From: Aegilops tauschii subsp. strangulata
Lineage: Eukaryota; Streptophyta; Magnoliopsida; Poales; Poaceae
Direction: 5' to 3'
Assembly: GCF_002575655.3 (NCBI RefSeq)
Contig: NC_053036.3
Location: 650,525,387 to 650,589,386, forward strand
Length of the DNA stretch: 64,000 nt
The first letter of the stretch is position 1. The number at the start of each line of letters is the position of its first letter. The position numbers and the translations under genes were made by a program. Below the pieces are notes generated by a model. The model ran no database searches. It had not been told where the DNA came from and saw only the letters and a list, made by a program, of their open reading frames with translations. Below, one piece after another: positions 13,107 through 64,000 of this stretch.

Positions 13107-14799
13107 TGTTGGGGATCGTAGCAGAATTTTTAAATTTCCAACGCATCACCAAGATCCATCTATGGAGTATACTAGCAAGAGGGGAAAGGAGTGCATCTAC
13201 ATACCCTTGTAGATCGCGAGCGGAAGCGTTCTAATGAACGGGGTTGATGGAGTCGTACTCGTCGTGATCCAAATCACCGATGACCGAGTGCCGAACGGAC
13301 GGCACCTCCGCGTTCAACACACGTACGGAGCAGCGACGTCTCCTCCTTCTTGATCCAGCAAGGGGAAAGGAGAGGTTGATGGAGATCCAGCAGCACGACG
13401 GCGTGGTGGTGGATGTAGCGGGGATCCCGGCAGGGCTTCGCCAAGCGCAAGCGGGAGGGAGAGGTGTTGCAGGGGGAGAGGGAGGCGCCAGGGGCTGTGT
13501 TGTTGCTGCCCTCCCTCCCCCCACTATATATAGGCCCCCTGGGGGGGGCGGCCCTGGGAGATCAGATCTCCAAGGGGGGGCGACGGCCAAGGGGGAAGGG
13601 GGGTGGCTTCCCCCCCAAGCCAAGTGGGGCGCCCCCACCCCTAGGGTTTCCAACCCTAGGCGCAGGGGGAGGCCCAAGGGGGGGCGCCCCAGCCCACTAA
13701 GGGCTGGTTCCCTTCCCACTTAAGCCCATGGGGCCCTCCGGGATAGGTGGCCCCACCCGGTGGTCCCGGTACAATACCGATAACCCCTGAAACTTTCCCG
13801 GTGGCCGAAACTGGACTTCCTATATATAATTCTTCACCTCCGGACCATTCCGGAACTCCTCGTGACGTCCGGGATCTCATCCGGGACTCCGAACAACTTT
13901 CGGGTTTCCGCATACTAATATCTCTACAACCCTAGCGTCACCGAACCTTAAGTGTGTAGACCCTACGGGTTCGGGAGACATGCAGACATGACCGAGACGC
14001 CTCTCCGGTCAATAACCAACAGCGGGATCTGGATACCCATGTTGGCTCCTACATGTTCCACGATGATCTCATCGGATGAACCACGATGTCGAGGATTCAA
14101 TCAATCCCGTATACAATTCCCTTTGTCAATCGGTATGTTACTTGCCCGAGATTCGATCGTCGGTATCCCAATACCTTGTTCAATCTCGTTACCGGCAAGT
14201 CTCTTTACTCGTACCGCAATGCATGATCCTGTGGCTAACTCCTTAGTCACATTGAGCTCATTATGATGATGCATTACCGAGTGGGCCCAGAGATACCTCT
14301 CCGTCAGACGGAGTGACAAATCCCAGTCTCGATCCGTGTCAACCCAACAGACACTTTCAGAGATACCCATAGTGCACCTTTATAGTCACCCAGTTACGTT
14401 GTGACGTTTGGCACACCCAAAGCATTCCTACGATATCCGGGAGTTACACGATCTCATGGTCTAAGGAAAAGATACTTGACATTGGAAAAGCTCTAGCAAA
14501 CGAACTACACGATCTTTGCGCTATGCTTAGGATTGGGTCTTGTCCATCACATCATTCTCCTAATGATGTGATCCTGTTATCAATGACATCCAATGTCCAT
14601 AGTCAGGAAACCATGACTATCTGTTGATCAACGAGCTAGTCAACTAGAGGCTTACTAGGGACACGTTGTGGTCTATGTATTCACACATGTATTACGATTT
14701 CCGGATAACACAATTATAGCATGAACAATAGACAATTATCATGAACAAAGAAATATAATAATAACCATTTATTATTGCCTCTAGGGCATATTTCCAACA
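13107..14799 (-). repeat. 3' LTR of Angela
   Basis: 1693 bp. Lacks about 22 bases near 13763 that are present in the 5' LTR; the missing piece is bounded by short GGTGG repeats, consistent with slippage. The adjacent purine tract on the minus strand (AAGTGGGAGAC, about 14800-14810) is the polypurine tract. Confidence 0.95.
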
Positions 14800-14831
14800 G
14801 TCTCCCACTTGCACTAGAGTCAATAATCTAG

Positions 14832-17800
14832 TTACATTGTGATGAATCGAACACCCATAGCGTTCTGGTGTTGATCATGTTTTGCTCTAGGGAGAGGTTT
14901 AGTCAACGGATCTGCTACATTCAGGTCCGTATGTACTTTACAAATATCTATGTCTCCATTTTGAACACTTTCACGAATGGAGTTGAAGCGACGCTTGATA
15001 TGCCTGGTCTTCCTGTGAAACCTGGGCTCCTTGGCAAGGGCAATAGCTCCAGTGTTGTCACAGAAGAGAGTCATCGGGCCCGACGCATTGGGAATCACCC
15101 CTAGGTCGGTAATGAACTCCTTTATCCAGACTGCTTCCTGTGCTGCCTCTGAGGCCGCCATGTACTCCGCTTCACATGTAGATCCCGCCACGACGCTTTG
15201 CTTGCAACTGCACCAGCTTACTGCTCCTCCATTCAAAATATACACGTATCCGGTCTGTGACTTCGAGTCATCCAGATCTGTGTCGAAGCTAGCATCGACG
15301 TAACCCTTTACGACGAGCTCTTCGTCACCTCCATAAACGAGAAACATATCCTTAGTCCTCTTCAGGTACTTCAGGATATTCTTGACCGCTATCCAGTGTT
15401 CCTTGCCGGGATTACTTTGGTACCTTCCTACCAAACTTACGACAAGGTTTAGATCAGGTCTGGTACACAGCATGGCATACATAATAGACCCTATGGCCGA
15501 GGCATAGGGGATGACACTCATCTCTTCTATATCTTCTGTCGTGGTCGGGCATTGAGCCGTGCTCAATTGCACACCTTGCAACACAGGCAAGAACCCCTTC
15601 TTGGACTGATCCATACTGAACTTCTTCAATATCTTGTCAAGGTATGTACTCTGTGAAAGACCAATGAGGCGTCTTGATCTATCTCTATAGATCTTGATGC
15701 CTAATATATAAGCAGCTTCTCCAAGGTCCTTCATTGAAAAACACTTATTCAAATAGGCCTTTATACTTTCCAAGAATTCTATATCATTTCCCATCAATAG
15801 TATGTCATCCACATATAATATGAGAAATGCTACAGAGCTCCCACTCACTTTCTTGTAAACACAGGCTTCTCCATAAGTCTGTGTAAACCCAAACGCTTTG
15901 ATCATCTCATCAAAGCGAATGTTCCAACTCCGAGATGCTTGCACCAGCCCATAGATTGAGCGCTGGAGCTTGCATACTTTGTTAGCATTCTTAGGATCGA
16001 CAAAACCTTCCGGCTGCATCATATACAATTCTTCCTTAAGGAAGCCGTTAAGGAATGCCGTTTTGACGTCCATTTGCCATATCTCATAATCATAGAATGC
16101 GGCAATTGCTAACATGATTCGGACGGACTTCAGCTTCGCTACGGGTGAGAAAGTCTCATCGTAGTCAACCCCTTGAACTTGTCGATAACCCTTAGCGACA
16201 AGTCGAGCCTTATAGATGGCCACATTACCATCCGCGTCTATCTTCTTCTTAAAGATCCATTTATTTTCTATGGCTCGCCGATCATCGGGCAAGTCAGTCA
16301 AAGTCCATACTTCGTTTTCATACATGGATCCTATCTCGGATTTCATGGCTTCTAGCCATTTGTCGGAATCCGGGCCCGCCATCGCTTCTTCATAGTTCGA
16401 AGGTTCACCGTTGTCTAACAACATGATTTCCAGGACAGGGTTGCCGTACCACTCTGGTGCGGAACGTGTCCTTGTGGACCTTCGAAGTTCAGCAGTAATT
16501 TGATCCGAAGCTTCATGATCATCATCATTAACTTCCTCCCCAGTCGTAAGCACCACAGGAATATCTTCCCGCGCTGCGCTACTTTCCGGTTCGGAAGGGG
16601 TGACTATCACCTCATCAAGTTCCACTTTCCTCCCACTTACTTCCTTCGAGAGAAACTCTTTCTCCAGAAAGGACCCGTTCTTGGCAACGAAGATCTTGCC
16701 TTCGGATCTGAGGTAGAAGGTATACCCAATAGTTTCCTTAGGGTATTCTATGAAGACGCATTTCTCCGACTTGGGTTTGAGCTTTTCAGGTTGAAGTTTC
16801 TTGACATAAGCATCACATCCCCAAACTTTTAGAAACGACAGCTTAGGTTTCTTCCCAAACCATAATTCATACGGTGTCGTCTCAACGGATTTCGACGGAG
16901 CCCTATTTAAAGTGAATGCAGCTGTCTCTAGAGCGTATCCCCAAAATGATAGCGGTAAATCGGTAAGAGACATCATAGATCGCACCATATCTAATAGAGT
17001 GCGATTACGACGTTCGGACACACCATTTCGCTGAGGTGTTCCAGGCGGCGTGAGTTGTGAAACGATTCCACATTTCCTTAAGTGTGTACCAAATTCGTGA
17101 CTTAAATATTCCCCTCCACGATCTGATCGCAGGAACTTTATTTTTCTGTCACGTTGATTCTCAACCTCACTCTGAAATTCCTTGAACTTTTCAAAGGTTT
17201 CAGACTTGTGTTTCATTAGGTAGACATACCCATATCTACTTAAATCATCAGTGAGAGTGAGAACATACACCGCGAGCCTCAACACTCATTGGACCGCACA
17301 CATCGGTATGTATGATTTCTAATAAGTTGGTTGCTCGCTCCATTGTTCCGGAGAACGGAGTCTTGGTCATCTTACCCATGAGGCATGGTTCGCACGTGTC
17401 AAATGATTCGTAATCAAGAGACTCCAAAAGTCCATCTGCATGGAGCTTCTTCATGCGTTTGATACCAATGTGACCAAGGCGGCAGTGCCACAAGTATGTG
17501 GGACTATCGTTATCAACTTTACATCTTTTGGTATTCACACTATGAATATGTGTAACATCACGTTCGAGATTCATTAAGAATAAACCATTGACCAGCGGGG
17601 CATGACCATAAAAACATATCTCTCAGATAAATAGAACAACCATTATTCTCGGATTTAAATGAGTAGCCATCTTGCATTAAACGAGATCCTGATACAATGT
17701 TCATGCTCAAAGCTGGCACTAAATAACAATTATTGAGGTTTAAAACTAATCCCGTAGGTAAATGTAGAGGTAGCGTGCTGGCGGCGATCACATCGACCTT

Positions 17801-18781
17801 GGAACCATTCCCGACGCGCATCGTCACCTCGTCCTTGGCCAGTCTCCGCTTATTCCGCAGCTCCTATTTTGAGTTACAAATATGAGCAACCGCACCGGTA
17901 TCAAATACCCAGGAGCTAGTACGAGTACTGGTAAGGTACACATCAATTACATGTATATCACATATACCTTTGGTGTTGCCGGCCTTCTTGTCCGCTAAGT
18001 ATTTGGGGCAGTTCCGCTTCCAGTGACCACTTCCCTTGCAATAAAAGCACTCAGTCTCAGGCTTGGGTCCATTCTTCGACTTCTTCCCGGCAACTCCCTT
18101 GCCGTCCTTCTTGAAGTTCTTCTTACCCTTGCCTTTCTTGAACTTAGTGGTTTTATTCACCATCAACACTTGATGTTCCTTTTTGATCTCCACCTCCGCT
18201 GATTTCAGCATTGAATATACCTCAGGAATGGTCTTTTCCATCCCCTGCATATTGAAGTTCATCACAAAGCTCTTGTAGCTTGGTGGAAGTGACTGAAGGA
18301 TTCTGTCAATGACCGCGTCATCTGGGAGATTAACTCCCAACTGAGACAAGCGGTTGTGTAACCCAGACATTCTGAGTATGTGCTCACTTACAGAACTATT
18401 TTCCTCCATTTTACAGCTGAAGAACTTGTCGGAGACTTCATATCTCTCGACCCGGGCATGAGCTTGGAAAACCATTTTCAGCTCTTCGAACATCTCATAT
18501 GCTCCATGTTTCTCAAAACGCTTTTGGAGCCCCAGTTCTAAGTTGTAAAGCATGCCGCATTGAATGAGGGAGTAATCATCAGCACGTGATTGCCAAGCGT
18601 TCATAACGTCTTGGTTCTCTGGGATGGGTGCTTCACCTAGCGGTGCTTCTAGGACATAATCTTTCTTGGCAGCTATGAGGATGATCCTAAGGTTCCGGAC
18701 CCAGTCCGTATAGTTGCTGCCATCATCTTTCAGCTTGGTTTTCTCTAGGAACGCGTAGAAGTTGAGGACAACGTGGGCCAT
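14832..18781 (-). pseudogene. Angela gag-pol polyprotein with one stop and two frameshifts
   Basis: The start is the ATG at 18781 (MAHVVLNFYAF). Gag has a UBN2-type domain, then a CFYCKGSGHWKRNC knuckle near 18030, then the protease site VFDTGAVAHIC near 17890. A TAG at 17864-17866 replaces what looks like a Gln codon; the same frame resumes after it. Frameshifts follow near 17610 and 17285. Beyond them the frame to 14832 is long and open: the integrase core and NGVSERRNRTLLD near 17010, RT with LYVDDILLMGND near 15800, and RNase H with DNTGAIALAKEP near 15010. Reaction: reverse transcription and integration of the element RNA. Three lesions make this copy dead but mobilisable. Confidence 0.9.
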
Positions 18782-20075
18782 TTGATCTACAAGACATATT
18801 GTAAAGATTTTAGACTAAGTTCATGATAATTAAGTTCATCTAATCAAATTATTCAATGAAATCCCACTCAGATAGACATCCCTCTAGTCATCTAAGTGAA
18901 ACATGATCCGAGTTAACTAGGCCGTGTCCAATCATCACGTGAGACGGACTAGTCAAGATCGGTGAACATCTCCATGTTGATCGTATCTTCTATACAACTC
19001 ATGCTCGACCTTTCGGTCCTCCGTGTTCCGAGGCCATGTCTGTACATGCTAGGCTCGTCAAGTCAACCTAAGTGTATTGCGTGTGTTCCGAGGCCATGTC
19101 TGTACATGCTAGGCTCGTCAACACCCGTTGTATGCGAACGTTAGAATCTATCACACTAGATCATCACGTGGTTCTTCGAAACAACGAACCTTCGCAACGG
19201 TGCACAGTTAGGGGGAAAACTTTCTTGAAATTATTATAAGGGATCATCTTACTTACTACCGTCGCTAAGCAAATAAGATGCAAAACATGATAAACATCAC
19301 ATGCAATCAAATAGTGACATGATATGGCCAATATCATTTTGCTCCTTCGATCTCCATCTTCGAGGCGTCATGATCATCTTCGTCACCGGCATGACACCAT
19401 GATCTCCATCATCGTGTCTTCATGAAGTTGTCACGCCAACGATTACTTCTACTTCTATGGCTAACGCGTTTAGCAATAAAGTAAAGTAATTTACATGGCG
19501 TTATTCAATGACACGCAGGTCATACAAAAAATAAAGACAACTCCTATGGCTCCTGCCAGTTGTCATACTCATCGACATGCAAGTCGTGATTCCTATTACA
19601 AGAATATGATCAATCTCATACATCACATATATTTCATTCATCACATCTTCTGGCCATATCACATCACAAGGCATATGCTGCAAAAACAAGTTAGACGCCT
19701 CTAGTTGTTGTTGCATGTTTTTACGTGGCTTCTATAGGTTTCTAGCAAGAACGTTTCTTACCTACGTAAAAGCACAACGTGATATGCCAATTACTATTTA
19801 CCCTTCATAAGGACCCTTTTCTTCGAATCCGATCCGACTAAAGTGGGAGAGACAGACACCCGCCAGCCACCTTATGCAACTAGTGCATGTCAGTCGGTGG
19901 AACCAGTCTCACGTAAGCGTACGTGTAAGGTCGGTCCGGGCCGCTTCATCCCACGATGCCGCCGAATCAAGATAGGACTAGTAGCGGCAAGTAAATTGAC
20001 ATGATCTACGCCCACAACTGCTTTGTGTTCTACTCGTGCATAGTAACTACGCATAGGCCTGGCTCATGATGCCAC
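18782..20075 (-). other. Angela 5' leader with primer site and 60-bp tandem repeat
   Basis: About 1.3 kb of untranslated leader. Next to the LTR the minus strand reads TGGCATCATGAGCC (20062-20075), a diverged initiator-Met primer site. Two copies of a 38-base motif (GTGTTCCGAGGCCATG...) lie at 19023-19060 and 19083-19120. Small frames here have no family resemblance. Confidence 0.7.
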
Positions 20076-21793
20076 TGTTGGGGATCGTAGCAGAATTTTT
20101 AAATTTCCTATGCATCACCAAGATCCATCTATGGAGTATACTAGCAACGAGGGGAAAGGAGTGCATCTACATACCCTTGTAGATCGCGAGCGGAAGCGTT
20201 CTAATGAACGGGGTTGATGGAGTCGTACTCGTCGTGATCCAAATCACCGATGACCGAGTGCCGAACGGACGGCACCTCCGCGTTCAACACACGTACGGAG
20301 CAGTGACGTCTCCTCCTTCTTGATCCAGCAAGGGGAAAGGAGAGGTTGATGGAGATCCAGCAGCACGACGGCGTGGTGGTGGATGTAGCGGGGATCCCGG
20401 CAGGGCTTCGCCAAGCGCAAGCGGGAGGGAGAGGTGTTGCAGGGGGAGAGGGAGGCGCCAGGGGCTGTGTTGTTGTTGCCCTCCCCCCCCCCACTATATA
20501 TAGGCCTCCTGGGGGGGCGCCGGCCCTGGGAGATCAGATCTCCAAGGGGGGGCGGCGGCCAAGGGGGAAGGGGGGGTGGCTTCCCCCCAAGCCAAGTGGG
20601 GCGCCCCCACCCCTAGGGTTTCCAACCCTAGGCGCAGGGGGAGGCCCAAGGGGGGGCGCCCCAGCCCACTAAGGGCTGGTTCCCTTCCCACTTCAGCCCA
20701 TGGGGCCCTCCGGGATAGGTGGCCCCACCCGGTGGACCCCCGGGACCCTTCTGGTGGTCCCGGTACAATACCGATAACCCCCGAAACTTTCCCGGTGGCC
20801 GAAACTGGACTTCCTATATATAATTCTTCACCTCCGGACCATTCCAGAACTCCTCGTGCCGTCCGGGATCTCATCCGGGACTCCGAACAACTTTCGGGTT
20901 TCCGCATACTAATATCTCTACAACCCTAGCGTCACCGAACCTTAAGTGTGTAGACCCTACGGGTTCGGGAGACATGCAGACATGACCGAGACGCCTCTCC
21001 GGTCAATAACCAACAGCGGGATCTAGATACACATGTTGGCTCCTACATGTTCCACGATGATCTCATCAAATGAACCACGATGTCGAGGATTCAATCAATC
21101 CCGTATACAATTCCCTTTGTCAATCGGTATGTTACTTGCCCGAGATTCGATCGTCGGTATCCCAATACCTTGTTCAATCTCGTTACCGGCAAGTCTCTTT
21201 ACTCGTACCGCAATGCATGATCCCGTGGCTAACTCCTTAGTCACATTGAGCTCATTATGATGATGCATTACCGAGTGGGCCCAGAGATACCTCTCCGTCA
21301 CACGGAATGACAAATCCCAGTCTCGATCCGTGTCAACCCAACAGACACTTTCAGAGATACCCGTAGTGCACCTTTATAGTCACCCACTTACGTTGTGACG
21401 TTTGGCACACCCAAAGCACTCCTACGATATCCGGGAGTTACACGATCTCATGGTCTAAGGAAAAGATACTTGACACTGGAAAATCTCTAGCAAACGAACT
21501 ACACGATCTTTGCGCTATGCTTAGGATTGGGTCTTGTCCATCACATCATTCTCCTAATGATGTGATCCCGTTATCAATGACATCCAATGTCCATGGTCAG
21601 GAAACCATGACTATCTGTTGATCAACGAGCTAGTCAACTAGAGGCTTACTAGGGACACGTTGTGGTCTATGTATTCACACATGTATTATGATTTCCGGAT
21701 AACACAATTATAGCATGAACAATAGACAATTATCATGAACAAAGAAATATAATAATAACCATTTATTATTGCCTCTAGGGCATATTTCCAACA
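20076..21793 (-). repeat. 5' LTR of Angela
   Basis: 1718 bp, TG...CA ends, same sequence class as 13107-14799. GC-rich open frames in both orientations occur at the same place in both LTRs and are chance frames. Confidence 0.95.
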
Positions 21794-56160: not shown

Positions 56161-58319
56161 CCCAAGTGCCTTCTGTTTGATTCAAAAATTCTGAAACCAA
56201 TTGTGGACAATCATGCGATCGGACATCATATGGTATACGCCGTTCGTCCCTTGGGATCCAATTGTCCGACCGAACCTGAGTAGTTCGGCCATCTCCAATC
56301 CTGCGAATTAGTCCAGTCCGTAGGACATCCCGACCCACGAGCACCGAGCGCCATATTTGCGATGGTCTTGACCCTAATTCAGCACCTAAAATATCGGAAG
56401 ATGGGTGATATACTGCCTTCAAAATCCTCGCACTTAGAGTCTCCAGAGAGACTAGACACTTCCATGCTTGGCGTGCTAAAAGGGCCAGGTTAAATAACTC
56501 CATATCCCTGAAGCCCAAACCGCCCATATACTTAGGCATTGTGAGTGTGTCCCAGGAAACCAGTGCGTCTTCCTCTTCGCTTTTTTGCTTCTCCAGTAAA
56601 AACTTCTCACAAGTGCATTAAGCTCATTACACAATCCTCTTGGCAATTTGAAGCATGCCATCGAGTAGGTTGGGACTGCCTGTGCAACTGACTTAATCAA
56701 GACCTCCTTTCCCGCCGTTGCTATGTTCCATCCGGCCTTTAACCTTTCCCCACAGGCTGTCCTTGAGATACTTGAAACCTCAGTTTTTGGAATTGCCCAC
56801 GTCTGTGGGCATACCTAAGTATTTTGCACTCAGAGATTCATTGGGAACTTCCAGTACACCCTTCATCTCTTCTCTTACAGAATTTGGACAACCCTTACTG
56901 TGAATAGCGCTTTTTTGGAGATTAACCATCTGCCCTGGGGCATTGCAGTACACTTGAATGGCATCTTTTAATTCCTTTGCTCCCTTCACACTAGCTTTTG
57001 CAAATAGCAAGCTGCCGTCTGCAAATAAAAGGTGACTGACCGGGGGTGTTGTGGGCGCCACAATGATGCCCGACAAATTTTCAGAATTCCCCCTGTTCCT
57101 TAAAAGGCAAGACAGACCTTCAGCAGCAAGCGAAAACAAATAAGTGAGATTGGGTCGCCCTGTCGGATGCCCCTACTTGGTTTAAAATCTCCAGTATGTT
57201 CCCCATTAAATAACACTGAGAAGTTGACTGATGTGACAACTTTCATTACCAAATCAACCCACCTGGTATTGAAACCAAGTTCAAGCATGATAGCACGCAG
57301 GTATGGCCACTCAATTCGATCATAGGCCTTCATCATATCCACCTTGAGAGCACAGAACTGAGATCCCCGAGCCCTCTTCTTCTTCACAAAATGAAGGCAC
57401 TCATACGCCGTAATAATATTATCAGTAATTAACCGCCCATGTACAAACGCCGACTGCTCTACTGATATGATTTTCGGCAGTATCTCCTTCAGCCTATTTG
57501 CTTGTACCTTCGATACAATCTTCAAAATAATGTTACATAAACTAATCAGACGGAATTGGGTAAGAGAAGTTGCACCTTTAATTTTTTGAATGAGAACGAT
57601 GAGAGTATGGTTAGCTTCCCCTGGATCTTCTACCCCGTTCAAAATACTCAGCACCGCTCTAATCACTTCTTCCCCACACAAATTCCAGTGGCGCTGCAAA
57701 AAGTGGGCAGGGAAGCCATCCGGGCCCGACGCTTTTGTTGCTTTCGCATCTTTGCGTGCAGCTCACTCAAAGAGTTACTTTCGCCTTCTTTCTTCCACGA
57801 GGATTCAACAAATTCCCAAAAATTCCCGTGTCTTTCCCACATCAATTCATATCTGAACAAACGTGTCCCACTTCCATTATTGCATGTGCTTGGTTCGGTT
57901 GTTCTCAAAAGCAATGGGCAATGATCTGACTTTGCCGCTGTTAAATGGTGAACCGAAGCAAAAGGAAATCTCGACCACCAAGTAGTAGACGCCAGAGCCC
58001 TGTCTAGCCTTACCCTAGTGTAAGAACCACCCCTAACCTTTTTCTCAAAGGTCCATGCATTGCCGATAAATCCCAAATCACACAGACCACACACGTCCAC
58101 AGCCTCACAGAAACCTCACATTTGTTTGGAATCTCTTTCGCCCACCCCAAAGTGCTCCTTCTGATGCAACACTTCATTGTAATCTCCAATACACATCCAC
58201 GGGAGGTCGCTCTCCGTTCGCAAAAAACTGAGTAAATCCCAAGTCTTCTGTCTCTCGGTCACGGTGGCCTCACCATAGATACAGGTGATGCACCATGGAT
58301 CTGCGCCCGCTTCCCTGAC
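56078..58319 (-). pseudogene. LINE A endonuclease and reverse transcriptase
   Basis: Endonuclease part: CITCIYGEATVTERQKTW and LPWMCIGDYNEVLH (58280-58180), then FIGNAWTFEKKVRGGSYTRV and LTAAKSDHCPLLL (about 58060-57900). RT part: LIPK-equivalent [15 protein letters not shown] (about 57600), [13 protein letters not shown] (about 57330), GIRQGDPIS (about 57165), then after a frameshift HLLFADGSLLF (about 57010), in which the second catalytic Asp of FADD is Gly. MGGLGFRDMELFN follows near 56525. Several stops and frameshifts. The Asp-to-Gly change alone should abolish polymerase activity. Confidence 0.85.
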
Positions 58320-58364
58320 AGGTTACTGGTTCGAACCACTCCCACGCGCGCAGTTTTGTGAGAT

Positions 58365-58615
58365 TTAGAAAACCGAATGAAAATGAAGATGGGCCGGCCC
58401 AGCACGGAGGAAAGGGTGTGTGACCGATTGCAAAAATAGGAGGAACGGATGCCGAAAGCGCCGTTTAGGATTTGCCCGAACGAAGACCTCCTGTACGAGG
58501 CCTATTGCCAAACAGATCACCGGGATTCGAACTAGGGACCCCACACTCTTGACACGGACTGCTTGCCGCTTGCCACTCGACCAAGCAACTACTTGTGATT
58601 TCATATAGCACGAAT
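58365..58615 (-). mobile_element. Second tRNA-derived SINE, minus strand
   Basis: On the minus strand, TTGCTTGGTCGAGTGGCAAGC (box A region, near 58590) and CTAGTTCGAATCCCGG (box B, near 58525) resemble a Ser/Leu-type tRNA, followed by a body with GGGCCGGCCCATC and CATTTTCATTCGG. No intact tRNA fold or CCA-adjacent end, so it is a SINE and not a tRNA gene. Confidence 0.65.
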
Positions 58616-58965
58616 TATATGAGAACAACCAACAACGTTCATATACAAAAAACATTTCCGTAAAAAATCAAAACTTTTCATAAAACAAATGTGAAGAATT
58701 TGGAAATGTTGAATATTCTTTTGGAAAAGAAAATAATTTATGAAACTCAATTTTTTTTGGAAACTTGGAACAAACTTTGAAATTCCAAAACGTTTTTGGA
58801 AAAGTGTGAAGAATTTTGGGATTACTAACATTTTTTTAAATGTGAACAATTTTTGTAATCCTTAACAGTTTATAAAAATGTGGACAAAATTTGGAAATAC
58901 CAAACAGTTTTAAAAACACATGAATTTTTTTTCAAAACCATGAACATTTGTTGAAACAAAGGCGC
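58616..58965. repeat. Low-complexity TTTGGAAAT/GTGAAGAAT tract
   Basis: Imperfect repetition of short A/T-rich words, similar in texture to 49660-49990, directly beside the SINE. Confidence 0.55.
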
Positions 58966-59064
58966 AGCAACATCAGCACAACATGCATATACCGAGCTAA
59001 ACTGCACTACATTACCTAAGCGCTGCTGCACACTGCAACCAGTGGCCGAGCTAGAGCAAAAGGC

Positions 59065-59451
59065 TTGGATTCCTTGAGCACTTCCATAAGCCGCCTGCAT
59101 TGGCAGTCTGCTCCCACACGCCTCCATGGCGCCGTTCTAGGTGATGGAGTGGTACTTGCCGTTTTAGAGGACAACATCCTCGACCCTGTCACGCGAGGGA
59201 GCCAGCCTCCACCTGTCGGCCTCCCCTGTGGCGAAGGCCGGGACGCCTAAGTGCGGTGCCGTGATTAGCATGGCGGCAGAGTCGGAGAGGACGACCTTGT
59301 GATAGAAGAAGCGACACATCAGCTCGACACCTATCGTAAACGTCCCCTGCAGCGGGCGGTTCCCGCTGACGTAGTACAGGGGACCCCTGAGGAAGTCTTT
59401 CGGCTGGAGCATCATGATGCTGAAGCCGCCCCACTTCTCCAAGAGGTACAA
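59065..59451 (-). pseudogene. DUF295-type gene fragment, middle part
   Basis: A minus-strand frame with LCAL-like GFSIMMLQPKDFLRGPLYYV, FFYHKVVLSDSAAML, HLGVPAFATGEADRWRLAPS and RDRVEDVVL, then a stop where relatives continue (NGKYHSIT, stop, NGAMEA). This is the mid-region of grass F-box/DUF295 proteins. In-frame stops at 59162 and beyond show decay. Confidence 0.65.
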
Positions 59452-59739
59452 TAAGGCTTCCCAATACCTGCTCCAGCTCGATCCATGTCACGACCAGAAT
59501 TTCAATTTCATATGGCAAACAGGTGATCTCAGGCCTGACTAATTCGTCAAAGCTTCATGTAACTCCACGGAGCCCCATATTCTCCAGTTGAGTGGAAGGA
59601 TGAGGCGGTACAAAACAAAACAAGACAAAAAAAAACTTACCTAGGAAAACCGTCGAGCACTCGCAAGGAGGTGAAGGTGTACCGGCTGGCCGGCGACATT
59701 GAGGCCAAACTAGGTTGCTGCGATGCATGCCAATGACCT

Positions 59740-59984
59740 TCAAATGTGCGTAAGAACAGTCAGATGCAGCGCCAGCGGCCGCCAACGCGGAAGAAGATCT
59801 GAGGCGCACGTCCTCCGAGGGCAGGAGTACTCGTCTGTGGTCTCCTTGGACACCTTGAGCACCACCATCAGCCGGTCGCCCGGCGCCGCTACGAGGTACT
59901 TGCGGGTTGCGGCACAACAAAGACCATCCACATTGGGCAGCCTTGGCGCGACCACCGCGTTCATGAACACGCCGCCGGCATTGT
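59740..59984 (-). pseudogene. DUF295-type gene fragment, later part, cut by the gag array
   Basis: Minus strand: AGGVFMNAVVAPRLPNVDG, RKYLVAAPGDRLMVVLKVSK, ETTDEY. In relatives this segment follows the VPAFAT...VEDV segment, but here it lies upstream of it on the minus strand, so the two fragments are out of order. The retroelement array begins inside this sequence at about 59985. Confidence 0.6.
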
Positions 59985-60611
59985 GGTTGCCGCGCCCTTC
60001 TCCCTCCCTCACCGGAGCACTACCTCTCTCTCTATGCACTCGAGGAAGAAAAGGACTGAAGGAAGAAGAAGGACACAGGGACACAAGAGTATTCCGGCGC
60101 ACGTACCCCACCCGCCGCACCAACGGCGTTCTCTTTTTCTCCTGAGCACGTATTCAGCACACCAGACTACAACATGCGGGGTCAATACTTATACACGGAC
60201 ACACACACGCACTAAGCTAGCTAACCTGATCCATCTAACAAACTCATGCATGCATGCAGCTGGACGCAGCTAGCGCCTACGCAACGCCCGCCCGCCGAGC
60301 TCCACGCGCGCGTACACGATCTCCTGGAGACTCGGCGCGAGCCGCTGCTCTTCCGCTGCTTTCGCCCAGCCCTCACGCCCACTGCGCCACGCCCCGCGCT
60401 TCTCAGCTCCTGCGCCTGTCGCGCACGCACGTCAACGGGACGCAACTGGTTCCGGCGCCCGGCACGGCCACACCCCGCGTGTCCGTCTTAGCAACCCACA
60501 CACCAGGTCACATACGCACGCGACCCAGGCTGCCACGGGCCGAGCCCGACGCATTCACCACGCGCACGCATGCGCACCGCGTCCCGGGCTCGCCACGGCT
60601 TATTCCCAACA
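59985..60611 (-). repeat. LTR copy a
   Basis: About 627 bp; on the minus strand starts TGTTGGGAATAAGCC and ends GCGCGGCAAC. The outermost end differs slightly from copies b and c (GGTTGCC rather than TGTTGCC), so the exact border is uncertain by a few bases. A TATA-like GTATAAGTA lies near 60190. Confidence 0.8.
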
Positions 60612-60631
60612 CACTCCCCCTAAGCCGTGGC

Positions 60632-61486
60632 CTAGAGGAGTCCGTCGTCGTCGACGTTGCCGTTCACCAGCAACGCCTGCTCCGCCGCTGGCGCCTTCCT
60701 CAGCTTGGGGCAGTCCCTCTTGAAGTGGCCGCGCTCGCCACACTTGTAGCAGCGCCCGCGCCGGTTCTCGCCGCTGCTCGATGCCACGCTGTTGTTGTCG
60801 TCGTCGTCCCGAGCACCGCCGTGTCGACCCTCGCGCGCTGCCCACTGTGCCGCCATCCTGAGGAGCTGCTCACCCCCGCGCTCGCCGCCGTCTTGTCCAC
60901 GGCGCCGAACCCGCTCGTCGAACGCGCGCAGCCGCCCAAGCGCCTCGTCGAACGCCATCGTGGTCACGTCATGGAACTGCTCGATGCCGGCGACGACGGG
61001 AAAGAGCCGATCCGGCACCGTATCCAGCAGCTTCTTGACGAGCGCCGCGTCGCCCAGCGTCTCCCCGAGGTTGGCGTACCTCGCCGCCATCGCCGCGAGC
61101 CTCCCGCCGTACACGTCGAGCTCCTCGCCGTCCGCCATCTTCAGGCGGTCGAATTCGCCGTGCAGCGTCGCCAGCCTTGCCGCGCGGACCCGATCGGCAC
61201 CGACGAACCTCACCTTCAAGGACTCCCATACCCCCCTGGCGGTGAGCTTCATCGACACCTGCAGCAACACGTCCTCCGGTAGCGCTCCGAGCAGCAACGC
61301 GCGCGCCATCTTGTCCTTCAGCGCGTGCACTGCTACATCGCCCGGCGCCACCGCCTCCCACACGGTGTGCACGTCGAGGATGGCCTGCGCCTTGATCGCC
61401 CAGACGGTGTAGTTGTTCACCGTGAGCATCGGCATCGCCATCGACGCCGATCCGCCCGCGCCTCCGCCATAAGGGACGAGCGCCAT
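60632..61486 (-). CDS. Copia-type Gag, copy 1 (intact)
   Basis: 284 residues from the ATG at 61486 (MALVPYGGGAGG). N-terminal part with YTVWAIKAQAILDVHTVWEA (DUF4219/UBN2-like copia gag), a central helical gag region (GVWESLKVRFVGADRVRAA, LLDTVPDRLFPVVAGIEQFH), an acidic DDDDNN linker and a CCHC zinc knuckle CYKCGERGHFKRDC near residues 246-259. Family role: self-assembly into virus-like particles and RNA packaging. The stop at 60632 is followed within about 10 bases by a purine tract and the LTR, so no pol ever followed. Very GC-rich compared with flanking LINE DNA. About 90% or more like copy 2 by eye. Confidence 0.85.
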   Translation of the reverse strand: MALVPYGGGAGGSASMAMPMLTVNNYTVWAIKAQAILDVHTVWEAVAPGDVAVHALKDKMARALLLGALPEDVLLQVSMKLTARGVWESLKVRFVGADRVRAARLATLHGEFDRLKMADGEELDVYGGRLAAMAARYANLGETLGDAALVKKLLDTVPDRLFPVVAGIEQFHDVTTMAFDEALGRLRAFDERVRRRGQDGGERGGEQLLRMAAQWAAREGRHGGARDDDDNNSVASSSGENRRGRCYKCGERGHFKRDCPKLRKAPAAEQALLVNGNVDDDGLL

Positions 61487-61512
61487 GGTCGCCGGTGATC
61501 GCCCGAACCAAA

Positions 61513-61525
61513 GCTCTGATACCAA
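61513..61525 (-). other. Primer binding site, initiator tRNA-Met
   Basis: The minus strand reads TTGGTATCAGAGC just downstream of LTR b, the standard plant initiator-Met primer site of copia elements. The same site recurs at 63057-63069. Confidence 0.85.
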
Positions 61526-61529
61526 TTGA

Positions 61530-62155
61530 TGTTGCCGCGCCCTTGTTCCTCCCTCACCGGAGCACTACCTCTCTCTCTCTCTGCACTCGAGGAAGAAGAG
61601 GACTGAAGGAAGAAGGACACAGTGACACAAGAGTATTCCGGCGCACGTACGCCACTCGCCGCACCAACGGCGTTCTCTTTTTCTCCTGAGCACGTACTCA
61701 GCACACCAGACTACAACATGCGGGGTCAATACTTATACACGGGCACACACACACACTAAGCTAGCTGACCCGATCCATCTAACAAACTCATGCATGCATG
61801 CAGCTGGACGCAGCTAGCGCCCACGCAACGCCCGCCCGCCGAGCTCCACGCGCGCGTACACGATCTCCTGGAGACTCGGCGCGAGCCGCTGCTCTTCCGC
61901 TGCTTTCGCCCAGCCCTGACGCCCACTGCGCCACGCCCCGCGCTTCTCAGCTCCTGCGCCTGTCGCGCACGCACATCAACGGGACGCAACTGGTTCCAGC
62001 GCCCGGCACGGCCACACCCCGCGTGTCCGTCTTAGCAACCCACACACCAGGTCACGTACGCACGCGACCCAGGCTGCCACGGGCCGAGCCCGACGCGTTC
62101 ACCACGCGAACGCATGCGCACCGCGTCCCGGGCTCGCCACGGCTTATTCCCAACA
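61530..62155 (-). repeat. LTR copy b, shared by two gag units
   Basis: 626 bp. Acts as the 5' LTR of gag copy 1 and the 3' LTR of gag copy 2. The adjacent purine tract (minus strand TAGGGGGGG) is at 62157-62166. Confidence 0.85.
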
Positions 62156-62175
62156 CACCCCCCCTACGCCGTGGC

Positions 62176-63030
62176 CTAGAGGAGTCCGTCGTCGTCGACG
62201 CTGCCGTTCACCAGCAGCGCCTGCTCCGCCGCTGCCGCCTTCCTCAGCTTGGGGCAGTCCCTCTTGAAGTGGCCGCGCTCGCCACACTTGTAGCAGCGCC
62301 CGCGCCGGTTATCGCCGCTGCTCGATGCCACGCTCTTGTTGTCGTCGTCGTCCCGAGCACCGCCGTGTCGACGCTCGCGCGCTGCCCACTGTGCCGCCGA
62401 CATGAGGAGCTGCTCACCCCCGCGCTCGCCGCCGTCTTGTCGACGGCGCCGAACCCGCTCGTCGAACGCGCGCAGCCGCCCAAGCGCCTCGTCGAACGCC
62501 ATCGTGGTCACGTCGTGGAACTGCTCGATGCCGGCGACGACGGGAAAGAGCTGATCCGGCACCGTATCCAGCAGCTTCTTGACGAGCGCCGCGTCGCCCA
62601 GCGTCTCCCCGGGGTTGGCGTACCTCGCCGCCATCGCCGCGAGCCTCCCGCCGTACACGTCGAGCTCGTCGCCATCCGCCATCTTCAGGCGGTCGAATTC
62701 GCCGCGCAGCGTCGCCAGCCTCGCCACGCGGACCCGATCGGCACCGACGAACCTCACCTTCAAGGAGTCCCATACCTCCCTGGCGGTGAGCTTCATCGAC
62801 ACCTGCAGCAACACGTCCTCCGGTAGCGCTCCGAGCAGCAACGCGCGCGCCATCTTGTCCTTCCGCGCGTTCACTGCTGCATCGCCCGGCGCCACCGCCT
62901 CCCACACGGTGTGCACGTCGAGGATGGCCTGCACCTTGATCGCCCAGACGGTGTAGTTGTCCACCGTGAGCATCGGCATCGCCATCGACGCCGATCCGCC
63001 TGCGCCTTCGCCATAAGGGACGAGCGCCAT
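62176..63030 (-). CDS. Copia-type Gag, copy 2 (intact)
   Basis: 284 residues from the ATG at 63030 (MALVPYGEGAGG), same length and domains as copy 1: DUF4219/UBN2-like start, central gag region, DDDDNK linker, CYKCGERGHFKRDC knuckle. Differences from copy 1 are scattered substitutions, several conservative, with no indels. Primer site at 63057-63069, purine tract at 62157-62166. Two open copies side by side suggest recent amplification or preservation of Gag. Confidence 0.85.
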   Translation of the reverse strand: MALVPYGEGAGGSASMAMPMLTVDNYTVWAIKVQAILDVHTVWEAVAPGDAAVNARKDKMARALLLGALPEDVLLQVSMKLTAREVWDSLKVRFVGADRVRVARLATLRGEFDRLKMADGDELDVYGGRLAAMAARYANPGETLGDAALVKKLLDTVPDQLFPVVAGIEQFHDVTTMAFDEALGRLRAFDERVRRRRQDGGERGGEQLLMSAAQWAARERRHGGARDDDDNKSVASSSGDNRRGRCYKCGERGHFKRDCPKLRKAAAAEQALLVNGSVDDDGLL

Positions 63031-63073
63031 GGTCGCCGGTGATCGCCCGAACCGAAGCTCTGATACCAATTGT

Positions 63074-63704
63074 TGTTGCCGCGCCCTTCTCCCTCCCTCA
63101 CCGGAGCACTACCTCTCTCTCTCTCTCTGCACTCGAGGAAGAAGAGGACTGAAGGAAGAAGAAGGACACAGGGACACAAGAGTATTCCGGCGCACGCACG
63201 CCACCCGCCGCACCAACGGCGTTCTCTTTTTCTCCTGAGCACGTACTCAGCACACCAGACTACAACATGCGGGGTCAATACTTATACACGGGCACACACA
63301 CGCACTAAGCTAGCTGACCTGATCCATCTAACAAACTCATGCATGCATGCAGCTGGACGCAGCTAGCGCCCACGCAACGCCCGCCCGCCGAGCTCCACGC
63401 GCGTGTACACGATCTCCTGGAGACTCGGCGCGAGCCGCTGCTCTTCCGCTGCTTTCGCCCAGCCCTGACGCCCACTGCGCCACGCCCCGCGCTCCTCAGC
63501 TCCTGCGCCTGTCGCGCACGCACGTCAACGGGACGCAACTGGTTCCAGTGCCCGGCACGGCCACACCCCGCGTGTCCGTCTTAGCAACCCACACACCAGT
63601 TCACGTACGCACGCGACCCAGGCTGCCACGGGCCGAGCCCGACGCGTTCACCACGCGCACGCATGCGCACCGCGTCCCGGGATCGCCACGGCTTATTCCC
63701 AACA
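63074..63704 (-). repeat. LTR copy c
   Basis: 631 bp, same ends as copy b, with a slightly longer CT microsatellite near 63115-63130. Confidence 0.85.
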
Positions 63705-63722
63705 CACTCCCCCTATGCCGTG

Positions 63723-64000
63723 GCCTAGAGGAGTCCGTCGTCGTCGACGTTGCCGTTCACCAGCAGCGCCTGCTCCGCCGCTGGCGCCTTCCTCAGCTTG
63801 GGGCAGTCCCTCTTGAAGTGGCCGCGCTCGCCACACTTGTAGCAGCGCCCGCGCCGGTTCTCGCCGCTGCTCGATCTTGTTGTCGTCGTCGTCCCGAGCA
63901 CCGCCGTGTCGACGCTCGCGCGCTGCCCACTGTGCCGCCGTCATGAGGAGCTGCTCACCCCCGCGCTCGCCGCCGTCTTGTCCACGGCGCCGAACCCGCT
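63723..64000 (-). pseudogene. Copia-type Gag, copy 3, frameshifted and cut by window end
   Basis: The C-terminal part of a third gag unit. Relative to copies 1 and 2, 8 bases are missing near 63874, between the acidic linker and the knuckle, so the frame changes before the zinc knuckle. The knuckle codons themselves are still present in another frame. The N-terminal half lies beyond the window. Confidence 0.8.

Follow-up and report, generated by a model that had tools for sequence, protein, structure and literature searches.

A tandem array of gag-only copia-type units in Aegilops tauschii and its probable origin by unequal exchange between LTRs

The array and its Gag protein

The 64,000-nucleotide stretch of the Aegilops tauschii subsp. 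strangulata genome analysed here, hereafter the window (C2:650525387-650589386 of the searched assembly, which holds 4.10 Gb in 692 contigs), ends inside a tandem array of a short copia-type retrotransposon that encodes the capsid protein Gag and no pol. Using direct repeats, open reading frames (ORFs) and motif searches, we found that window positions 59982-64000 carry, on the minus strand, long terminal repeats (LTRs) and gag units in the order LTR-gag-LTR-gag-LTR-gag. Read from the genome beyond the window, the array closes 1243 bp past the edge with a fourth LTR that ends at 65243 (window coordinates), the complete structure comprising four LTRs and three internal regions in 5262 bp (59982-65243). 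A perfect 5-bp target-site duplication (TSD), GGCAT, stands on either side of the whole array, with its left copy at 59977..59981 and its right copy directly past 65243. The LTRs and internal regions, the latter of 915 bp, recur every 1544-1549 bp, which bears out the fixed period of about 1.55 kb proposed in a first-pass annotation of this DNA; its description of a gag-only, copia-like element with a zinc knuckle, an initiator-Met primer site, a purine tract and no pol also proved correct, and the extension to the right that it suggested settled the total at three units.

All sense features of the array lie on the minus strand. The 3' outer LTR in sense orientation, LTR a (630 bp, 59982..60611), is adjoined by a polypurine tract (PPT; 60612..60622) and followed by an intact gag of 284 codons with a Retrotran_gag_2 domain and a zinc knuckle (60632..61486), a primer-binding site (PBS), TGGTATCAGAGC (61513..61524), and the inner LTR b (629 bp, 61527..62155). 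A second intact gag of 284 codons (62176..63030), 92.6 % identical to the other intact unit, comes next, with the same PBS TGGTATCAGAGC at 63057..63068 and the inner LTR c (634 bp) at 63071..63704. The third internal region runs from 63705 to 64611, its part within the window being 63705..64000, and is bounded past the window edge by LTR d, the 5' outer LTR (64612-65243). The array thus has the three gag units that the first-pass annotation counted, although in the third, which the window end also cuts, an 8-bp deletion near 63875 breaks the frame ahead of the zinc knuckle. In the sense direction each LTR starts with TGTTGGGAATAA and ends with CAACNNCA, and is succeeded by the primer site (ATTGGTATCAGAGC), a gag start 40 nt past the LTR, a purine tract (e.g. 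TAGGGGGAGTG) and the next LTR. We take TGGTATCAGAGC to be the complement of the 3' end of initiator tRNA-Met, and the TATAAG motif found in 4/4 LTRs of the array is a putative promoter.

Pairwise Kimura two-parameter (K2P) distances are 0.024-0.034 among the three in-window LTRs and 0.023-0.035 among the three internal regions, which carry private substitutions, and the LTRs differ by indels too. Assembly duplication is therefore an unlikely source of the array, which withstood this check for an artefact. Nested independent insertions are rejected, since one TSD surrounds the array and its units are monophyletic, forming one clade against the dispersed copies (support of 97 for the internal-region split and 79 for the LTR split, and 100 in a larger tree). 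The flanks of the array (window 59097-59446; positions 7138-7473 of L001, which is the array with flanking DNA) share a 351-bp stretch at 83 % identity, so that related copies of a further sequence lie on both sides of the element. An Rfam scan of 58000-64000 gave nothing at gathering scores, and a Pfam scan of two left-flank ORFs gave no match.

Retrotran_gag_2 was matched in the two intact Gags with E-values of 7.7e-13 and 1.9e-13 and the zinc knuckle with 2e-7 in each; DUF4219 was also matched, above its curated cut-off in only one of the two. Over its positions 21-268, the profile of the Gag family matches 8vvw, the copia capsid protein of Drosophila (E 1.9e-9), and the same capsid ranks first in Foldseek (E 4.2e-6; target-based TM-score 0.47; root-mean-square deviation 8.9) for an AlphaFold2 model of Gag whose mean predicted local distance difference test score is 73.5 and predicted template-modelling score 0.48, with residues 1-14, 201-207, 224-242 and 265-284 of low confidence. 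By profile and by predicted fold, Gag resembles the Drosophila copia capsid.

A gag-only family and its polyprotein relatives

A protein search with the window Gag returned 300 relatives among 7995 scored candidates. Among the 120 of these that were listed, those named to species come from Pooideae grasses (Aegilops, Triticum, Hordeum, Avena, Lolium, Alopecurus and Puccinellia), and the protein cluster holding the window Gag has 111 members. The zinc knuckle is kept in 95 of the 120 listed homologues, 84 of which end 19-26 residues past it. In a Gag tree that left out 33 of the 120 (for length, no zinc knuckle or a long tail) and 7 of 49 polyproteins, 87 gag-only proteins split from 42 polyprotein Gags with support of 100, and the gag-only C-termini read ...PALL, ...GLL or similar at the spot where polyproteins continue as ...PALLLAV or similar. 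Judged from these sequences, the gag-only clade likely had one origin, a claim limited by the bias of homologue searches towards certain lengths and shared words. Polyprotein relatives found in the non-exhaustive protein search are P0121 from guava (46 %) and P0122 (42 %), and the rice polyprotein P0130, 42 % identical to the window Gag, turned up only in a separate search. The split that places P0121 beside the gag-only clade has support of 48 and is not taken as a sister relation. A search of viral contigs showed no relative.

In the A. tauschii genome, no pol was found inside LTR-bounded elements among 42 fetched stretches (41 loci, two stretches overlapping), in line with the first-pass annotation. 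Pol-like matches in 7 of the 42, whose positions relative to the element were compared by hand, fall outside the LTR-bounded element or on the opposite strand distant from gag (L010 and L024, both without a clean LTR pair). When the window Gag was searched against its own genome, 137 of 25,911 candidates were scored and the longest open frame around the hits was 551 aa; for residues 1-225 of the rice P0130, 150 of 7222 candidates were scored, the best being 56 % identical, and no open frame exceeded 551 aa. These frame counts miss decayed polyproteins with early stops and candidates that were not scored.

Of 38 loci fetched in a first genome search, eight (L010, L015, L019, L021, L024, L027, L029 and L030) have no clean LTR pair and were omitted from LTR, TSD and dN/dS counts. 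In the 30 loci with extracted LTRs, allowing LTR ends to shift by up to 8-10 bases, the TSD is a perfect 5-bp repeat in 18, has one mismatch in 2 and was not found in 10. The 25 single-unit relatives measure 1889-2191 bp, that is, less than 4 kb, with LTR K2P values of 0.004-0.092. A frame of 284 or 285 codons is kept in 18 of 37 internal regions across 30 loci (a hand count of these two lengths only). TR-GAGs are terminal-repeat retrotransposons with a GAG domain, for which later papers cite Chaparro et al. (2015); the family is a TR-GAG, old yet young in places: its dispersed copies carry TSDs with LTR divergence down to 0.4 %, and the window array has LTRs with TG...CA ends and a TSD, a PBS, a PPT and a single Gag ORF with no pol. 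The array is also a tandem LTR-retrotransposon structure, with alternating internal regions and LTRs, an LTR at both ends and one TSD. It departs from terminal-repeat retrotransposons in miniature (TRIMs) such as Cassandra, which are defined by a lack of coding capacity, in that gag is present and selected at family level.

Primer sites vary across the family. The initiator-Met site TGGTATCAGAGC was found in 6 of 32 family loci, including the window array, and a site one base longer, TGGTATACAGAG(C), in 17, while in 9 others the site varies or is lost; TGGTATACAGAGC is a variant PBS of the family. Both primer-site types are present within a 96 % identical subfamily, which is puzzling because the tRNA primer should rewrite the site. 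Elsewhere in the window, a larger copia element at 13107-21793, the one copia element compared with the family, carries minus-strand pol and has ~1.7-kb LTRs that are 97 % identical. The PBS of this element is TGGCATCATGAGCC, unlike the TGGTATCAGAGC of the TR-GAG, though the LTRs of both elements start with TGTTGG. Separately, the A. tauschii gene model P0019 fuses a Gag of the window type to a PF03478 domain, and its non-Gag part has no match within the window.

We estimated dN/dS by the pairwise Nei-Gojobori method (NG86). Over 91 pairs of 14 intact family copies it is 0.25, and between loci it falls from 0.62-0.68 at dS <0.06 to 0.25 at dS >0.3; a family-level value of about 0.25 therefore indicates that Gag was selected while the family replicated. 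Among the units of the window array, dN/dS is 1.3-1.8 on small counts (3-5 silent versus 16-22 replacement differences), and in a simulation without indels the chance that a frame escapes stops at the divergence of this array is 0.63-0.81. The first-pass annotation had drawn attention to two neighbouring open frames of identical length and had looked to a comparison of the copies for constraint. Both frames do encode 284 aa, but intact frames are to be expected by chance at this divergence and, with a dN/dS of 1.3-1.8 from unit to unit, give no indication of constraint; selection on the window array itself is not supported. Over nine within-array pairs from several loci dN/dS is 0.59 (ratio of means), with 2.30 in L017.

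Origin of the arrays

Arrays are not the rarity for such an element that the first-pass annotation had supposed. Five of the 38 loci from the first genome search were multi-unit (L001 and L036 with three units; L007, L017 and L037 with two each), and two protein searches together gave 169 gag places in 140 loci, 14 of which were multi-unit and held 43 places. This sample is biased towards copies like the queries, and only the best candidates were scored; six of the 14 were never fetched, and two (C5:182.17 and 182.32 Mb) apparently lie within one segmental duplication and may not be independent. Across that region (C5:182171882-182323738) gag copies are spaced at ~21-42 kb, which looks like segmental tandem duplication carrying the element along. 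The largest array, C7:641899541-641916561, has at least 10 gag places in 17 kb at ~1525 bp, with one gap of about three unit lengths, and a further large array at C1:22.64-22.70 Mb has gag places at multiples of ~1453 bp. Our searches of the literature on TR-GAGs, tandem LTR arrays and wheat gag-only elements, mostly outside subscription papers, found no report of gag-only copia arrays.

We consider, with a probability of roughly 80 %, that the locus in the window is one old copia-type TR-GAG insertion, expanded to three units when its LTRs underwent unequal homologous recombination. The outer-LTR K2P of 0.034-0.038 would place the insertion at about 1.3-1.5 My at a substitution rate of 1.3e-8 per site per year. 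An unequal crossover between the 5' and the 3' LTR predicts an inner LTR whose 5' part is like the 3' LTR and whose 3' part is like the 5' LTR, so that the private sites of the 5' outer LTR should come to the left of those of the 3' outer LTR. The value of P(left) was 0.82 in L001, 0.74 in L007, 0.84 in L017, 0.58 in L036 and 0.60 in L037 (permutation p 0.0014 for the five arrays). The test was devised after the site lists of these five were known and only L040 and L042, fetched later, count as replication; they gave 0.93 and 0.91 (p 5e-5). With L041 left out for want of a 5' LTR, all seven arrays tested lean in the predicted direction, with a mean P of 0.77 (p 1e-5, the floor of the run).

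L040 is the strongest case for exchange after insertion. Its outer LTRs differ at 25 of 539 sites (4.6 %), whereas its two inner LTRs are identical and its internal regions differ at 1-2 of 920, such that the insertion is old and the units are young, which requires later amplification. A single breakpoint, with the 5' part from the 3' LTR and the 3' part from the 5' LTR, accounts for 23 of 24 site events in L040, with all 13 left-type sites short of column 222 and all but one of the 12 right-type sites beyond column 261, and 17 of 19 site events in L042 fit the crossover prediction. Flanking duplications read by eye are TTCAG for L040 and GGGGG for L042. Internal divergence is lower than outer-LTR divergence in both of these arrays and in four of the first five.

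The alternative that best withstands these data, although we regard it as improbable, is insertion of a concatemer in one step, in which a transcript or cDNA spanning two or three units entered the site and its units diverged afterwards; a one-LTR circle, a leaky terminator or a pre-existing array could have given rise to it. The single TSD round the whole window array and the near-equal divergence of its LTRs and internal regions are what such an insertion would leave, tandem Cassandra transcripts of two to five units have been reported (PMC7215508), and the parts of a rice survey available to us leave both routes open (PMC11899658). However, a concatemer predicts outer LTRs no more diverged than the inner ones and no directional mosaic, and L040 and L042 show a clear mosaic, the outer LTRs of L040 exceed its internal regions in divergence by a factor of ~20-40, and in L001, L017, L037 and L040 the outer LTRs form the most divergent pair.

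Several observations weigh against growth by exchange. A control on single elements, with sites polarised by relatives and 13 of 25 elements usable (the other 12 having too few relatives), leans weakly towards the predicted order as well (mean 0.62, weighted 0.59, p 0.033); part of the mosaic statistic is thus a weak boundary bias, which the permutation p-values ignore, and values like those of L036 and L037 mean little. The window array gives a modest mosaic signal (P 0.82, one-sided p 0.018); five of its 31 polarised LTR sites are shared-derived, the private changes from LTR 1 to 4 number 5, 4, 6 and 11, and internal divergence is not significantly lower than outer-LTR divergence (ratio 0.82, p 0.29); its LTR sites are compatible with exchange without being compelling. 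In L036 divergence is higher in the internal regions than in the outer LTRs (ratio 1.20), L037 yields no usable breakpoint, and in L007, L036 and L042 the outer LTRs are not the most divergent pair. The near-identical units of L040 may have been miscounted in assembly, although its LTR mosaic is independent of their number. Within-array dN/dS values of 0.27-0.47 (L036), 0.53 (L007) and 0.59 (L037) do not fit simple neutral drift after insertion; low counts, and CpG decay at silent positions, are possible contributors. Finally, the scored hits in the genome include no autonomous partner of the same Gag lineage.

Two further explanations fare worse than the concatemer. It is very unlikely that element cDNA recombined with a resident LTR to add the extra units, which would then stem from different source elements. 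Yeast Ty1 cDNA does recombine with resident LTRs when integration is blocked, an element without its own integrase is a natural candidate for this route, and multi-unit loci are frequent (14/140); yet the units of each of five arrays are mutual closest relatives among 37 internal regions (support of 100, 100, 100 and 90 in the four besides the window array), and every donor cDNA would need recent sisterhood. A host-gene reading, in which a domesticated or amplified array is retained to supply capsid locally at high dose, is hardly credible despite two intact units of three, capsid-like profile and fold matches and the gag-only transcripts described in triticale seed (PMC7765848, consulted in part), as the locus lacks the purifying selection and LTR loss of a domesticated gag: its units compare at a dN/dS of 1.3-1.8, one of the three is frameshifted, chance would be expected to leave frames intact at this age, and the LTRs, PBS and TSD are all still there.

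A capsid gene kept without pol

Under growth by LTR exchange, the starting point would be an element with two LTRs, a PBS, a PPT, one Gag and no pol, the structure seen across the family. Its RNA would be made from the LTR promoter and packaged by Gag of its own family, and reverse transcriptase (RT) and integrase from an autonomous copia element would copy and integrate it, yielding the GGCAT duplication. A later exchange between 5' and 3' LTRs, on sister chromatids or homologues, would double the LTR-internal unit and make the inner LTRs mosaics of the outer two, with a solo LTR as the reciprocal product; this step is evident in the two sister arrays L040 and L042 and weak in the window array. 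The units of the window array show no constraint on Gag since their separation; selection becomes visible at family level, over many replication cycles. Gag would serve the element's own RNA or be given to a shared particle pool, rather than acting as a domesticated local gene. The first-pass annotation had suggested a parasite of an autonomous copia family, which is likely insofar as pol must come in trans; yet no partner of the same Gag lineage appeared among the scored hits, and selection on Gag points to a contributor more than to a pure parasite.

A broader scenario is tentative, and we think it may well be wrong: one old loss of pol would have founded a gag-only copia lineage that persists across Pooideae, its capsid gene maintained by purifying selection, and of which this genome retains no autonomous member. 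It would be a long-term capsid donor dependent on foreign RT and integrase, whose LTRs make satellite-like gag arrays of at least 10 units by unequal exchange.

The family shares with other TR-GAGs two LTRs, a short length, one gag ORF and no pol. Gag-only elements of copia type, mostly of the Tork lineage, are described in triticale and wheat in the part of PMC7765848 available to us, where most Gags have 169-270 aa and half lack the zinc-knuckle motif, unlike the 284-aa window Gag with its zinc knuckle; one TR-GAG moved in Arabidopsis ddm1, according to the accessible text of PMC8704663. What sets the window family apart is a gag-only state common to a grass clade with one homologous stop site, the lack of a same-lineage autonomous partner among scored genome hits and the frequency of LTR-sharing arrays. 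The rice tandem structures, as presented in the accessible portion of PMC11899658, resemble the window array in their alternating LTRs and internal regions, LTR ends, single 5-bp TSD and similar units, but are mostly gypsy (89 % of 66 candidates) and of origin left open there, whereas the window family is copia and gag-only, with LTR mosaics favouring exchange after insertion. Cassandra and Wukong TRIM arrays are likewise small, non-autonomous LTR elements placed head to tail in grasses (PMC7215508 and PMC4528315, in the sections available); Cassandra is described there without gag, pol or env, and the window family encodes Gag. Gag-donor partnerships have been proposed for wheat gypsy elements: in RLG_Cereba/RLG_Quinta and RLG_Sabrina/WHAM/Wilma, a non-autonomous Triticeae element keeps Gag and takes RT and integrase from a partner, and Quinta is dated to 28-35 My (PMC11302176, PMC9744471, as far as their accessible text goes). 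Those systems are gypsy, with a known partner that has PBS and LTR ends in common, whereas the window family is copia and no partner was found among scored hits.

TR-GAGs and tandem LTR arrays are each known, and the combination, together with a test of mechanism, is what is added here. Neither the rice survey of 2025 (PMC11899658) nor the Cassandra study (PMC7215508) settles, in the accessible parts, the origin of LTR-sharing arrays. Because this family offers many arrays of short, fully readable units, inner-LTR sequences can separate concatemer insertion from exchange between LTRs, and the two clearest cases, L040 and L042, support exchange. The family further presents a capsid gene kept by selection in elements that are unable to replicate alone, which makes the source of their pol directly testable.

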